DNA of 33,184 nucleotides. Origin: an uncultured bacterium (GTDB lineage: Bacteria; Verrucomicrobiota; Kiritimatiellia; RFP12; UBA1067). The number at the start of each line of letters is the position of its first letter. The first letter of the stretch is position 1. The notes below the pieces were generated by a model. That model was not told the origin of the DNA and made no database searches. It was given only the letters and a program-made list of their open reading frames with translations. The stretch is from assembly GCA_902803135.1 (NCBI GenBank), contig CADCPA010000295.1, forward strand, positions 1 through 33,184. The letters are read 5' to 3'. The position numbers were made by a program, and so were the translations under genes. Positions 1 through 5,800 of this stretch are shown piece by piece.

Positions 1-33
1 CCTCGGCTTCCGCCTTGCGGCCTCCCAGGATTG
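1..33 (+). repeat. DGR variable-region 3' end with IMH-like segment
   Basis: Bases 1-28 are identical to 1236-1263. After a single G/C difference at base 29, bases 30-33 match 1265-1268 as well. A near-identical 3' end with a small fixed difference between VR and TR is the expected pattern for the initiation-of-mutagenic-homing site (IMH in VR, IMH* in TR). The diversified upstream part of the VR is outside the window. Confidence 0.7.
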
Positions 34-34
34 A
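1..34 (+). CDS. 3' end of DGR target gene (FGE-sulfatase/C-type-lectin-like C-terminus), partial
   Basis: The first 34 bases read in frame 2 as LGFRLAASQD followed by TGA. LGFRLA is the usual end of formylglycine-generating-enzyme-like (C-type lectin fold) variable domains that serve as DGR targets. The rest of the gene lies left of the window. These bases repeat the 3' end of the template repeat at 1236-1268, so this is the tail of the variable region, and the HRDC and RT genes follow directly. The function of the full protein (surface binder or displayed ligand receptor) is inferred from the family only. Confidence 0.7.
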   Translation, partial: LGFRLAASQD

Positions 35-70
35 ACCGGTAAAGTCGGTAAGGGCGAGCGGCGGACGAGA

Positions 71-97
71 GCGTCCCGCGCGGACGCGCGGGTTCGC
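71..97 (+). repeat. GC-rich hairpin just downstream of the VR
   Basis: A perfect 7-bp stem, CCCGCGC (75-81) with GCGCGGG (86-92), encloses the 4-nt loop GGAC. The stem can be extended by three more pairs across a small internal loop (71-73 with 95-97). A short GC-rich hairpin with a 4-nt loop shortly after the VR stimulates retrohoming in the Bordetella phage DGR, so this may be its equivalent. It could instead be a terminator for the target gene, although no U-tract follows. Confidence 0.4.
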
Positions 98-137
98 GGA
101 GCGAAAGCTCGGCCGCTGCGAGCCTGCGAGGAGAGCG

Positions 138-587
138 ATGAGCCAGTTCAAGACATTTGTGTTGCCCAGCGAATCCGATGCGGCGTCAGAAGGCGCATTG
201 AACGCCTTCTTGCGGTCGCATCGGATCGTGTCTGTGGCGAAGACGTATGACGCTGGCGTATGGCGGTTCTGCGTTGAATGGATTGATGGCACACAGGGCG
301 AGTCGGGCGGATGTCAGTTGAAATACGCAGAGCGGATCGACTACATGAAGGTGCTTCCGCCGGAAGTGTTTGCCGTGTTTGCTCGTCTTCGCGAGAAGCG
401 AAAGGAACTGGCACAGCAGGCGGCCGTGCCGCCTTTCACCATCGCCACGGATGCGCAGCTGGCCGAGATGGCGAAGATCAAGGAGCCGTCTCTTGCAAAA
501 CTGGGTTCTATTGAGGGCATTGGCGAGGCGCGGCTCAAGTCGTATGGCGAGGCGTTTCTCTCCATTCTGGTCGAGAGTGTGTCGTGA
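138..587 (+). CDS. HRDC-domain DGR accessory protein
   Basis: A 149-residue protein. Residues about 75-146 read as an HRDC domain (helicase and RNase D C-terminal nucleic-acid-binding fold), with the LREKRKELA and GIGEARLKSYG segments typical of the fold. HRDC-domain proteins are a recognised DGR accessory type that replaces Avd in some systems; a role in assisting the RT/template RNA is family knowledge, not visible here. The start at 138 was chosen for the GAGGAGAG ribosome site just upstream; a longer in-frame extension would run back through the VR tail and hairpin. It overlaps the RT start by four bases (GTGA), implying coupled translation. The gene looks intact although the adjacent RT is not. 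Confidence 0.75.
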   Translation: MSQFKTFVLPSESDAASEGALNAFLRSHRIVSVAKTYDAGVWRFCVEWIDGTQGESGGCQLKYAERIDYMKVLPPEVFAVFARLREKRKELAQQAAVPPFTIATDAQLAEMAKIKEPSLAKLGSIEGIGEARLKSYGEAFLSILVESVS

Positions 588-1111
588 AGCGGGTCGGCTT
601 TCTCTTCAATCAGATCACTGACCGAGAGAATCTTCTCCTTGCGTATGCGAAGGCAAGTCGCGGGAAGTGTCTGCGGGCAGAGCGGGTCGCGTTCGGGGAA
701 AATCTGGAGGCAAACATCACAGCGCTTGGTCAGGGGTTACGTGAGTTGTCCTACCCCGTCGGAAACTATTCTCGCTTTACGATATACGATCCCAAGGAGC
801 GTGAGATTTGCGCCGTACCATTTGCGGAGCGGGTGGAGGCGTTCGCGAACGGCGAACTCGGACTGGAACTCAAGCAGAGGCCATTCGTCAATCGTACGTC
901 CGCAGGTATGGACTTTCTCGGGTTCAGGGTGTTCCCTGAACGTGTCGCGCTTTCGCGCGTGTCGGCGAGGCGATACGCCTCCCGTGTTCGCGGGATTACA
1001 CGGCATTGTGCGGATGAACAGACCGCGCAGATGCGGATGACGTCGATGACGGCGTTCGTCATGCAGGCAGATTCACACGCATGGAGGGCAAAGAAACTCA
1101 AGGATATTTGA
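584..1111 (+). pseudogene. DGR reverse transcriptase with catalytic core deleted in frame
   Basis: This 175-codon ORF starts at GTG (584) overlapping the HRDC stop. Its N-terminus (MKRVGFLFNQITDRENLL, then FTIYDPKEREICAVPFAERV) matches the start of DGR-type RTs. After residue about 84 the sequence jumps to the part that normally lies beyond the catalytic Asp-Asp box (LELKQRPFVNRTSAGMDFLGFRVFP) and on to the usual C-terminal tail. No YMDD-like box and no DGR-type SQ motif remain. Family members are usually well over 300 residues, so roughly 150-180 residues are missing. The junction lies near 827-841, where the flanking protein motifs (ERV and RVEAF) would supply short homology. The reading frame is preserved with no stops, so the loss is either recent or the stub is tolerated. 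It cannot work as a polymerase by itself. Confidence 0.75.
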
Positions 1112-1143
1112 AGGTGTGCGACGAGAAGGCCGGCAACTCCAAC

Positions 1144-1268
1144 CGCGTGAACCGGGGCGGCAGCTGGAACAACAACTCCAGGAACTGCACGGCGGGCAAT
1201 CGGAACTACAACAACCCCGACAACCGCAACAACAACCTCGGCTTCCGCCTTGCGGCCTCCCAGCATTG
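1144..1268 (+). repeat. DGR template repeat (TR), 5' limit approximate
   Basis: Read in the frame of the target gene this stretch gives RVNRGGSW, then a run dominated by Asn, then LGFRLAASQ. Twelve of the 23 codons between 1168 and 1236 are AAC or AAT, the hallmark of a TR whose adenines are mutated at reverse transcription so that Asn codons can become many others. The 3' end (1236-1268) matches window bases 1-33 with one mismatch. It sits about 30 nt after the RT stop, a common TR position. The 5' boundary cannot be fixed because the VR upstream of its last 33 bases is not in the window. Confidence 0.85.
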
Positions 1269-1271
1269 TGA

Positions 1272-1660
1272 TTTCGCGACCGGTTCACAATCCCCGACGC
1301 ATCCCTGATCTGCGGTGCGAATGGCACGGCGGCAACAATGGCTCAAATGATAGCATACGCAAATGGCGCGTGTGGTAGGGCGAGAGTGAATTCACTTAAG
1401 TTGGCTGGGATTGGAAATTACCAACAGAATTATATGCTTGTGCCTGCTTATGATGGACTTGCGCTTGGTCAGATCTTTGTAGTCTCAGGATGGTTCAACG
1501 GAGAGTATTGGAATAATGGAAATAGTACGTATCCTAGGCTAATATCGCGAAAGAGCATTAACTATAACGATCTTGGGAGTGGGAAATTACCTATCTGGAT
1601 ACTTATTTGACAATATCGGATGATGATGGTACGGGTGGCCGTTACAAAGGAGGTGGCGGA
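1272..1660 (+). pseudogene. LamG/concanavalin-like domain fragment with a frameshift
   Basis: From 1272 an open frame reads IPDASLICGANGT and continues to FVVSGWF, YPRLISRKSINYND, then meets a stop at 1608. Switching frame near 1570 gives SWEWEITYLDTYLTISDDDG, which continues a LamG-like beta-sandwich pattern (VSGW, RLISRK, W.W.I, L.IS). A single-base deletion there explains both halves. There is no convincing start codon or ribosome site; the fragment begins right behind the TR. Base composition is more AT-rich than the flanking genes. The LamG assignment rests on pattern resemblance only. The right end is uncertain because the second frame runs on into the toxin gene's antisense strand. Confidence 0.45.
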
Positions 1661-1672
1661 ATGAAAGACGGG

Positions 1673-1978
1673 CTAAAGTTGGCGTGGCGTTCTGATATTC
1701 ATGAGCGTGTGCCGAACAGAAAGGATTTCTACCTTATGTTTCTGAACGCGGTAGTAGATCCAGTAGCTGTAGTCTCGGCAGAGAATCTTCCGCAGTTCCG
1801 GGCGGTTGATTTCGGGAAAGGCCTCGCGCCCAAGTTGCGGATTGGCCGGAAGCATCAATGCCGCATTACGGGCATCGCTATCGAATTGAATTGCGTAATC
1901 GAGATAGAAGTTGTCGGCAATGTAATCGAAGGCGGATTGAAGCCGCTTGATGCCGCGCTTGGTCCATACAAGTTTCAT
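1673..1978 (-). CDS. RelE/ParE-family toxin
   Basis: A 101-residue protein of normal length for the ParE/RelE toxin superfamily. The start reads MKLVWTKRGIKRLQSAFDYIA (first helix pair), and the C-terminal strand block RDYSYWIYYRVQKHKVEILSVRH is characteristic. Family members either cleave mRNA on the ribosome or poison gyrase; which of these applies cannot be decided here. The ATG overlaps the antitoxin stop (ATGA, 1975-1978), giving the usual antitoxin-first operon with coupled translation. It lies inside a decaying accessory segment, where such pairs commonly persist. Confidence 0.8.
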   Translation of the reverse strand: MKLVWTKRGIKRLQSAFDYIADNFYLDYAIQFDSDARNAALMLPANPQLGREAFPEINRPELRKILCRDYSYWIYYRVQKHKVEILSVRHTLMNIRTPRQL

Positions 1979-2295
1979 ACGGCGACTTTCTTCTGCTTTG
2001 CCGCATGTTTGGCGATGTGCTTTTCCATCATGCGTTCAACTTCCTCTGCGGTGTACACCTCGTCCCGGTCGGCTTCACCCTCGGCGACAAGGAGATCCTC
2101 ATACGTTTCGAGCTTGTCGAGCTTCTCCTGGATTTCATCCCATGTGGAGGCGTTCACGAACACGCCGGCGGTGCGTCCGTTCTGCGTGACAATCACGGGC
2201 CGGCCGGTTTCGCGGGTCTGCGTGATGTACCCGGCGAGGTTTGAGCGGAATTCGCTGAGCGGAAGAATGTCTTCGTTGGCTTTGAAGTTGATCAT
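1975..2295 (-). CDS. Phd/YefM-family antitoxin
   Basis: A 106-residue protein starting MINFKANEDILPLSEFRSNL. The pattern PLSEFRSNLAGYITQTRETGRPVIVTQNGRTAGVFV (given here as family signature over residues about 10-47) is the Phd/YefM DNA-binding fold; the acidic C-terminal half (about 60-90) should wrap the toxin. The start at 2295 was chosen because AAGGAG lies six bases before it; a 20-codon upstream extension in frame would cover the promoter. It should neutralise the downstream toxin and repress its own promoter, where a palindrome overlaps the -10 box. Confidence 0.85.
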   Translation of the reverse strand: MINFKANEDILPLSEFRSNLAGYITQTRETGRPVIVTQNGRTAGVFVNASTWDEIQEKLDKLETYEDLLVAEGEADRDEVYTAEEVERMMEKHIAKHAAKQKKVAV

Positions 2296-2322
2296 GATGA
2301 GCTCCTTTCGTGGTGAAGGTGC

Positions 2323-2355
2323 GAATATTGTACAAAATTCGGTATGGCCTGTCAA
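2323..2355 (-). promoter_or_regulatory. Toxin-antitoxin promoter with palindromic operator
   Basis: On the minus strand TTGACA (2350-2355), a 17-nt spacer and TACAAT (2327-2332) form a near-consensus sigma70 promoter. An 18-bp palindrome (2323-2340), GAAT-A-TTGTACAA-A-ATTC with only one mismatched pair of positions, covers the -10 box. Phd-type antitoxins bind such dyads to autorepress, so this is the likely operator. The start codon follows at 2295 behind an AAGGAG site. Confidence 0.75.
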
Positions 2356-2370
2356 GGAGGCGGCATGAGA

Positions 2371-2398
2371 GAATTTGAAAAGATGAATTTGAAAAGAT
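2371..2398 (+). repeat. 14-bp tandem duplication
   Basis: GAATTTGAAAAGAT occurs twice back to back (2371-2384 and 2385-2398) just upstream of the toxin-antitoxin promoter. It is not inside any recognisable gene. Confidence 0.8.
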
Positions 2399-2411
2399 GA
2401 AGAGGATGAGC

Positions 2412-2535
2412 ATTAACCACGGACCTTCACCGACGGGGCGCACTAACGTTCGCCCTGATAATCTGAAAACTGCTGAGCGTAAGCGAGGCATGTCCGTGTT
2501 GGTCGGTGGTTAAATTAACCACGGACTACACGGAC
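2412..2535 (+). repeat. Palindromic element with 13-bp direct repeat
   Basis: The 13-mer ATTAACCACGGAC occurs at 2412-2424 and again at 2514-2526. The second copy is the right arm of an imperfect inverted repeat spanning 2492-2535, centred on GTGGTTAA-A-TTAACCAC (perfect 8-bp arms) and extending outward with one gap and a few mismatches to GTCCGTG/CACGGAC. It looks like a REP-type or remnant mobile-element end. The recognisable part of the AIM24-like fragment begins directly after it. Confidence 0.6.
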
Positions 2536-2540
2536 TGGCG

Positions 2541-2780
2541 GTTTGCTGGTCCGGGACGCTCGACTTTACGGTGGACCGTTCGTCCAAGTCCCTGCTCGGG
2601 TCAATGGTTAATGGCGAGGGCCTTGTCAACGTCTATCGTGGCACAGGTAAGATACTGATGGCTCCAACGCTTCCCGGAACTCTTGACGAAGGCACCAACG
2701 CCCCTAAAGCCGAAGATGCTGAGGCGACCAAGGGTATTGGCGCAAAGCTTCTGAAGGGGGTCTCAGGACTCGTTGATTGA
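2541..2780 (+). pseudogene. 3' fragment of an AIM24-family-like gene
   Basis: The frame is open after a stop at 2511. From about 2541 it reads CWSGTLDFTVDRSS, then SLLGSMVNGEGLVNVYRGTG and KILMAPT, resembling the C-terminal beta-strand repeat of AIM24-type proteins (conserved family of uncertain function). A Lys/Ala-rich tail ends at TGA 2778-2780. The N-terminal two thirds of a normal member are absent, and the left break coincides with the palindromic element ending at 2535. GTG at 2571 could start a 69-residue peptide but has no good ribosome site. The family call is tentative. Confidence 0.45.
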
Positions 2781-2839
2781 CGATCGACATCGTTTTACAG
2801 TTAACCGCAACACTATTCGCCCACACCCTTCGCAACATT

Positions 2840-2860
2840 TTCCCCCGCTCAACGGGGGAA
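2840..2860 (+). other. Perfect hairpin in the secA promoter region
   Basis: TTCCCCCG (2840-2847), loop CTCAA, CGGGGGAA (2853-2860): eight perfect pairs. It lies where the -35 box would be expected and ends seven bases before the -10 box of secA. It may terminate transcription arriving from the accessory region or serve as an operator. The downstream T-run (TTTATGC) is short. Confidence 0.5.
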
Positions 2861-2865
2861 TTTAT

Positions 2866-2873
2866 GCTATAAT
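2866..2873 (+). promoter_or_regulatory. secA extended -10 promoter
   Basis: GCTATAAT, preceded by T at 2865, gives the extended -10 form TGCTATAAT (TATAAT at 2868-2873). No -35 match is visible. The secA ATG is at 2883, nine bases after the box, so the predicted transcription start falls at or within about three bases of the start codon. No Shine-Dalgarno is present in the gap. Confidence 0.65.
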
Positions 2874-2882
2874 ATCATTCAT

Positions 2883-5800
2883 ATGGACATTCTGAAGAAA
2901 ATTTTCGGCACGAAGAACGCGCGCGACTTGAAGCGGATCAAGCCGATCGTGGAGGAGATCAACCGCCTCGAGCAGGAATTCGAGGCCCGGCATTTCACGG
3001 CGGAAGACTATCCTCGCATGACGGCCGAGTTCCGGCGCCGCCTCGCGGCGAAGGAGGTGACGCTCGACGGTCTGCTGCCCGAGGCGTTCGCGCTCGTGAA
3101 GAACGCCTGCCGCCATCTCGTGGGAACGACCGCGGAAGTCTGCGGCCACGTGCTGACGTGGGACATGATTCCGTTCGACTGCCAGCTCGTGGGCGGCATC
3201 GTGCTGCACCAGGGCAAGATTGCGGAAATGCAGACGGGCGAAGGCAAGACGCTCGTTGCGACGCTGCCGCTCTACCTGAACGCCCTCGAAGGCAAGAACG
3301 TGCAGCTCGTGACGGTGAACGACTACCTCGCCCGCCGCGATGCCACCTGGATGGGGCATCTCTACAAGTACCTCGGCCTCACGGTCGGCTGCATCCAGAA
3401 TTCCATGGACTCCGCCGAACGTCGCGCGCAGTACCAGTGCGACATCACGTACGGCACGAACTCCGAATTCGGCTTCGACAACCTGCGCGACAACGGCATG
3501 GCGCAGCAGCCCGAGCAGGTCGTGCAGAACGGCCATCATTTCGCGATCGTCGACGAAGTCGACTCGATCCTCATCGACGAGGCCCGTACGCCGCTCATCA
3601 TTTCGGGTCCGGCGACAGTTTCGACGAGCGCGCAGTACACGGCGATGAATCCGCTCGTCGCGAGCATCGTGCGCGTGCAGGTCCAGCAGTGCAACGAGTT
3701 CATCGCCGAAGCGAAGAAGTGTCTCGCCGCAGGCGACGAGTGGGGCTGCAAGCGTCGCATCTACCAGGTCTACCACTCGACGCCGAAGCACAAGCAGATG
3801 CTTCACATGTTCGAGGACGCCGCCATCCGCAAGCTCCACGAGGAAGTGGAGATGCAGATGCTCAGCGAACTCCATCGCGAAGAAGGGCGTTCGCTCAAGG
3901 CCGAGCTCTACTTCACGATCGACGAGCGCTCGCGCGAAGTGGCGCTGACGGACAAGGGTTGCGAGAAGATGAATCCGCAGGACCCGGAAACGTTCGTCAT
4001 CCCCGACCTCGCGAGCGCGATGAGCCAGCTTGACGGCAACAAGGACATGTCGCCGGAAGAGAAGGCCGAGAAGAAGAGCCGTCTGCAGTCGGACTTCATG
4101 GAACGCTCCGCACGTGTGCACGTCATCGACCAGCTGCTCCGCGCCTACTGCCTCTACGAGCGCGACGTCGACTATGTCGTGCAGCCCGACGAGCGCGGCG
4201 TGGGCCACGTCTACATCGTCGACGAATTCACGGGCCGCATCCTGCCGGGCCGCCGTTGGTCCGACGGTCTGCACCAGGCCGTCGAGGCGAAGGAAGGCGT
4301 CGAGATCGAGAAGGAGTCGCAGACGCTCGCGACGATCACGATCCAGAACTATTTCCGCCTCTACAGGAAGCTCGCCGGCATGACGGGCACGGCCGAAACG
4401 GAAGCGCGCGAATTCAAGGACATCTACAAGCTCGACGTCACGGTGATTCCGACGAACCGTCCGATTCGCCGCATCGACGGGAACGACCAGATCTACCGCA
4501 CGCAGCGCGAGAAGTACAAGGCCATCATCGAGGACGTGCGCAAGCGCCACTCGTACGGTCAGCCGGTGCTGCTCGGCACGGTGACGGTCGACACCTCCGA
4601 AATCCTTTCGCGGCTCCTCAAGGTCGCAAAGATTCCGCATGAAGTGCTGAACGCCAAGAACCATGCGCGCGAAGCCGAAATCGTGATGCTCGCCGGCCAG
4701 CCCGGCGCCGTGACGATCGCGACGAACATGGCCGGCCGCGGTACCGACATCAAGCTCGGGCCGGGCGTGGTGACGCTGCCGCAGGACGTTGTGAAGAGCA
4801 ATCTGTCGCTCAAGGACAAACTGCCGGGCACGAAGGATACGATCCAGCAGATTCTCGAAGCGCACCCGCAGGGCCTCTTCGTGATCGGCTCGGAGCGACA
4901 TGAGTCCCGCCGCATCGACCGCCAGCTGCGCGGACGCTGCTCGCGCCAGGGCGACCCCGGCGGTTCGCAGTTCTACATTTCGCTCGAAGACAACCTCATG
5001 CGTCTCTTCGGCTCGCAGAAGATCTCGGGCATCATGCAGCGTCTCGGCATGAAGGAAGGCGAAGTGATGGAGCACCGCTGGCTGAACAAGTCGGTGGAAA
5101 CCGCCCAGCGCCGCGTCGAACAGCAGAACTACGCCATCCGCAAGCGCACGCTTGAATTCGACGACGTGATGAACAAGCAGCGTACGATCGTCTACGATCT
5201 GCGCGGCCTGATCCTCATGGGGACGCCGGAAGACGTGCACGGCACGATCCTCGACGTCTTCAACGACATCGTTCTGATGCAGTCCGAACGCTTCCTCTCC
5301 GATCCGAAGGGATCGGGCGTGGAGGAGTTCCTCGCGTGGCTCGGCGTGACGTTCCCCGTGTCGGTGACGCCGGAAGACCTCAAGCCGTTCCTCGGCGAAC
5401 CCGGCAAGGCCGGCGAGTATGTCAACAAGCTCGTCGCCGAAGCCTACGAGGCCAAGTGCGCGATGGAGGATCCGCGCGTGCTGCCGCATATGGAACGCGG
5501 CGTGTTCCTGCAGTGCATCGACCGCGAGTGGCAGGACTACCTGCGCGCGATGGACGATCTGCGCCACAACGTGAACCTCCGTTCCTACGGTCAGCGCGAC
5601 CCGCTCATCGAATACAAGCGCGAAGCGTTCGACATGTTCGAGAACCTGATGACGACCATCAAGACGGGCGTCGCGAACATGGAATTCCGTTCGCATACCG
5701 AGATGGCGGTGCGCCGCATGATGGCGGCCTCCGAGCCGGCGCAGGCCCAGGCCCCGCACCGTCCGCCGCCGCCGCATCCGCAGCGCGGTCCGCGACTGGG

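Follow-up and report, generated by a model that had tools for sequence, protein, structure and literature searches.

A diversity-generating retroelement of the HRDC type whose reverse transcriptase gene, as assembled, lacks its catalytic core

The left end of the window (the whole stretch of DNA analysed here, 33,184 nucleotides, which is the entire contig C295 of a 3.1-Mb assembly in 348 contigs that is 81% complete) carries a cassette that is a real diversity-generating retroelement (DGR) by ancestry. A preliminary description had read this end as a DGR and that identity stands, but a currently working cassette is unsupported, because the catalytic motifs are missing from the assembled reverse transcriptase (RT). 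The element formerly worked: a variable repeat (VR) on a second contig, C232, is the product of adenine mutagenesis from the template repeat (TR) in the window. The cassette has probably been either silenced recently or mis-assembled.

Results

Template repeat, variable repeats and targets

Contig C295 ends at window base 1, inside VR1, the repeat of an adjacent target gene that is cut off there and that the preliminary description had taken for a putative diversified surface protein. The repeat features, all on the + strand, are:

1..33, +, 3′ end of VR1 (adjacent target gene), ending in the IMH (CCTCGGC...CAGGATTG), the same as the VR tail on C232
32-34, +, VR1 stop codon TGA, overlapping the VR1 end
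34..65, +, post-VR segment, present exactly in the remote target on C232 too (sequence identity)
1128..1268, +, TR with IMH* (CAGCATTG), from a 141-nt match to VR2 on C232

The preliminary description had the VR tail at 1–33 agreeing with the 3′ end of the TR but for one difference, and repeat comparison returned the same value (32/33 identical against 1236–1268). The TR is rich in Asn codons, as had been reported, with AAC or AAT making up 12 of 23 codons at 1168–1236. The repeat had been placed at 1144–1268; it is real, but its homology to the VR starts farther upstream, near 1128.

A search of the same assembly with window 1–1340 led to contig C232, at the end of which lies a 91-amino-acid open 3′ gene fragment, without its N-terminus, that ends at a VR. 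The fragment has an FGE-sulfatase domain (E 8e-20; formylglycine-generating-enzyme, C-type-lectin-like), in line with the lectin-like or FGE-like target that the preliminary description had given as known for such elements, and the VR thus sits at the 3′ end of a C-type-lectin/FGE-fold open reading frame, as in other DGRs. This VR2 (141 nt, ending within the stop codon) aligns gap-free to window 1128–1268 with 20 mismatches, 19 of them on TR adenines (37 adenines in the TR; hypergeometric P about 2e-12), comprising 12 A>G, 4 A>C and 3 A>T changes. The sole non-adenine difference is the C/G in CAGCATTG/CAGGATTG, a position that distinguishes IMH from IMH* in known DGRs. Aligning the 3′ end of the target gene to the TR was the check that the preliminary description had proposed; made via C232, it returned the DGR hallmark of mismatches concentrated at TR adenines, and past adenine-specific mutagenesis is borne out.

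The VR tail and the next 32 nt are identical between C232 and window 1–65, beyond which the sequences diverge; there are therefore at least two targets, an adjacent one, which the contig end truncates, and another lying remotely on C232. Within the same assembly, an adenine-masked 90-nt TR pattern matched only C232 and the TR itself (0 mismatches), and a loose VR-tail pattern gave chance-level matches only, fewer than its control.

HRDC accessory gene

138..587, +, HRDC-domain accessory protein, 149 amino acids (Pfam PF00570, E 6e-18)

The HRDC accessory gene of the preliminary description was recovered by Pfam. Its stop and the start codon of the RT gene overlap (GTGA), and both the open reading frame and the overlap are intact, so that the HRDC gene is linked to the RT gene as in HRDC-type DGRs. 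HRDC homologues were found in 46 of 53 related DGR loci. Together, the HRDC gene, RT gene, TR and GGA-loop hairpins fit the known HRDC-type DGR lineage.

Hairpins downstream of the variable repeats

57..117, +, compound target-site structure, an outer stem AGCGGC/GCCGCT (57-62/112-117) around two GGA-type-loop hairpins (descriptor scan)
75..92, +, hairpin 1, CCCGCGC-GGAC-GCGCGGG (score reached by about 1% of shuffles)
93..105, +, hairpin 2, TTCGC-GGA-GCGAA, a GRA-type triloop that includes GCGGAGC (descriptor scan, 7-mer enrichment)

Hairpin 1 is the one named in the preliminary description; its coordinates are as given there, and the last base of its GGAC loop departs from the GRNA consensus. 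With IMH and IMH* at the repeat 3′ ends (CAGGATTG versus CAGCATTG), these GC-rich GGA-loop hairpins after the VR are features expected of a DGR. By descriptor scan, the compound structure occurs once in the 33-kb window and twice in 54 other loci, each time just after a VR, and a descriptor of outer stem plus two hairpins is too strict as a general model (3 loci).

Scored regardless of structure, GCGGAGC was the top-enriched of 4215 seven-mers in the 150 nt 3′ of 45 VRs (16 VRs versus 0.7 expected), and a second VR set from the same phylum agrees, more weakly (4/17 VRs versus 0.54 expected); P values for this motif overstate independence because the loci share descent. Bases beside GCGGAGC pair more often 3′ of VRs than at other GCGGAGC sites. 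Across HRDC-type DGRs of several phyla, GGA-loop hairpins with this core are strongly enriched ≤150 nt 3′ of VRs, with the core almost only on the sense strand (relatives L076, L079, L082, L085 and L090). GRA triloops are known from archaeal DGRs (PMC4372165), GRNA tetraloops from phage DGRs (PMC3240598) and GNA loops from exceptionally stable DNA mini-hairpins (PMC4686876); the window hairpins are therefore consistent with a known class, this DGR lineage favouring GGA.

No Rfam families were found in window 1–5000. The interval that separates the DGR from a secA-like gene, beyond the 3′ end of the TR, holds ParE-like toxin and Phd/YefM-like antitoxin genes (1673–2355, minus strand). About 90 nt at 2413–2522 are repeated on contig C195 with 82% identity, part of them matching inversely too, and a short open reading frame at 2571–2780, similar to the C-terminal end of AIM24 protein under the Pfam cut-off, is probably a gene fragment.

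Loss of the reverse transcriptase core

584..1111, +, DGR RT remnant, 175 amino acids, catalytic core deleted in frame (BPP-1 RT match and comparison with relatives)
830..838, +, deletion junction, after ...FAERV, with about 145-150 codons missing (alignment with relatives)

The RT-related gene noted in the preliminary description does match the solved BPP-1 RT, in two separated stretches (residues 4–86 and 227–313) that abut in the 175-amino-acid product, but the catalytic core is absent. Pfam RVT_1 gave no match in the product of 584–1111; it is detected in intact relatives. Among related loci in which both RT halves could be placed (42, or 39 after dropping three same-contig duplicates), all 42 have 127–195 residues between the halves, mostly 144–154, compared with none in the window. 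By alignment, everything after ...FAERV up to EAFANGELGLELK is missing, including KxDxRKYFDS, GxPIGxLTSQ and YMDD (positions 133, 179 and 210 in P0001, an intact relative). This set comprises the catalytic motifs together with the SQ motif by which DGR RTs are recognised (PMC3521204). A functional DGR has a complete RT with YxDD and GxxxSQ motifs; here both are deleted.

RVT_1 was likewise absent from the entire 81%-complete assembly, and an intact relative's RT used as query on that assembly matched just the two RT halves, with no core elsewhere. At this completeness and in 348 contigs, an intact RT allele or a second RT could be missing. TR and VR agree at all non-adenine sites but the IMH base, and the RT loss, if real, must therefore be recent. 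Reading continues in frame through the junction, as happens by chance in one deletion in three and as is equally expected of a protein still under selection. A deletion between short repeats encoding 'ERV' was considered and is unsupported, as relatives share too little sequence at the junction.

Elsewhere in the phylum, two loci in other genomes (L139 in G402 and L161 in G424) carry DGR-type RT genes with in-frame stop codons, and broken DGR RTs may therefore not be rare there.

Discussion

We consider it likely that the cassette is an HRDC-type DGR with a core-less RT, now inactive and with its targets frozen. A chromosomal element ordered target, hairpin, HRDC, RT and TR would have acted by mutagenic retrohoming, in which TR RNA would be copied inaccurately at adenines into cDNA, which would replace the VR, the 3′ segment of at least two FGE/C-type-lectin-like target genes. 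The assembled strain would then have undergone an in-frame loss of about 145–150 RT codons (the palm core with its YMDD and SQ motifs), and the inactive cassette would leave its targets in their last variants. We infer that the cell itself carries the deletion, that the loss happened recently, and that no RT beyond the assembled sequence is at work.

The main competitor, to which we give appreciably less credence, is that the deletion is an assembly artefact or a minority strain variant, the RT being intact and the DGR active in the population. A simple collapse of repeats is unlikely, because no long repeat is seen at the deletion junction in the window, and the RT core was found on no other contig; yet the assembly is metagenome-like, with 348 contigs, C295 starts within VR1, a place at which repeats or strain variants interrupt assembly, the reading frame is preserved, and outside adenines the VR/TR pair is perfectly clean, as it is in active elements. 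It is improbable, in our judgement, that the DGR is non-autonomous, its deleted RT dead or non-catalytic and a complete RT elsewhere driving the TR in trans. About 19% of the genome is missing, so that such an RT could come from the unassembled part, a prophage or a plasmid, and some genomes of the phylum have several DGR-type RTs (G423, G424), but neither RVT_1 nor a DGR RT core occurs in the assembled part, and relatives of the same order mostly have one DGR RT. Slimmer still is the chance that the core-less RT (N-terminal part and thumb) aids the complex, for example in binding TR RNA or HRDC, while a catalytic RT elsewhere does the copying. That there is no DGR at all, only chance repeats within an Asn-rich FGE paralogue, can be dismissed: FGE domains have a GGSW...GFR ending in common, hence paralogues look alike, but the adenine-biased mismatches (19/20 on template adenines, P about 2e-12) refute this reading, and the RT remnant, HRDC and TR are as in tens of related DGRs.

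A cassette that looks complete by order and repeats can thus be without its driving enzyme, and DGR activity calls therefore need a check of the RT core. Should the deletion prove real, diversified relatives could be compared with a naturally frozen state in this strain. The GGA-loop hairpin recurring after VRs of HRDC-type DGRs is a small, testable cis-element for locating remote targets.

Comparison with known systems

Inactivated RTs, HRDC partners and remote targets have each been published before for DGRs. HRDC/RT overlap has been described in Treponema denticola DGRs (PMC4891356), where, as in the window, an HRDC gene overlaps the RT gene and one TR serves several targets, including remote ones; some T. 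denticola isolates, comparably, have targets without RT or TR. There, however, the accessory gene separates TR from RT, whereas the window has HRDC, then RT, then TR, and keeps its RT gene in the form of a core-less remnant. The DiGReF survey (PMC3521204, Fig. 4) likewise found broken RTs with intact VR/TR pairs showing adenine changes only, and took these as very recent inactivation; those RTs were broken by nonsense mutation, frameshift or transposon, and the window RT by in-frame core deletion.

Intact HRDC DGRs of the same order (L076, L079, L081, L082, L084 and L085) have HRDC homologues and RT halves 47–61% (N) and 34–52% (C) identical to those of the window but, unlike the window, complete RTs. 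All except L084 have a VR 5′ and a TR 3′ of the RT with adenine-specific VR/TR differences; in L079, L081 and L082 the HRDC gene is downstream of the TR, whereas in the window it lies between VR and RT. The Bordetella phage BPP-1 DGR differs in having Avd rather than HRDC, a GAAA loop, a phage-borne location and an intact RT, and shares with the window its RT family, adenine-specific VR/TR differences, the IMH and a hairpin after the VR.
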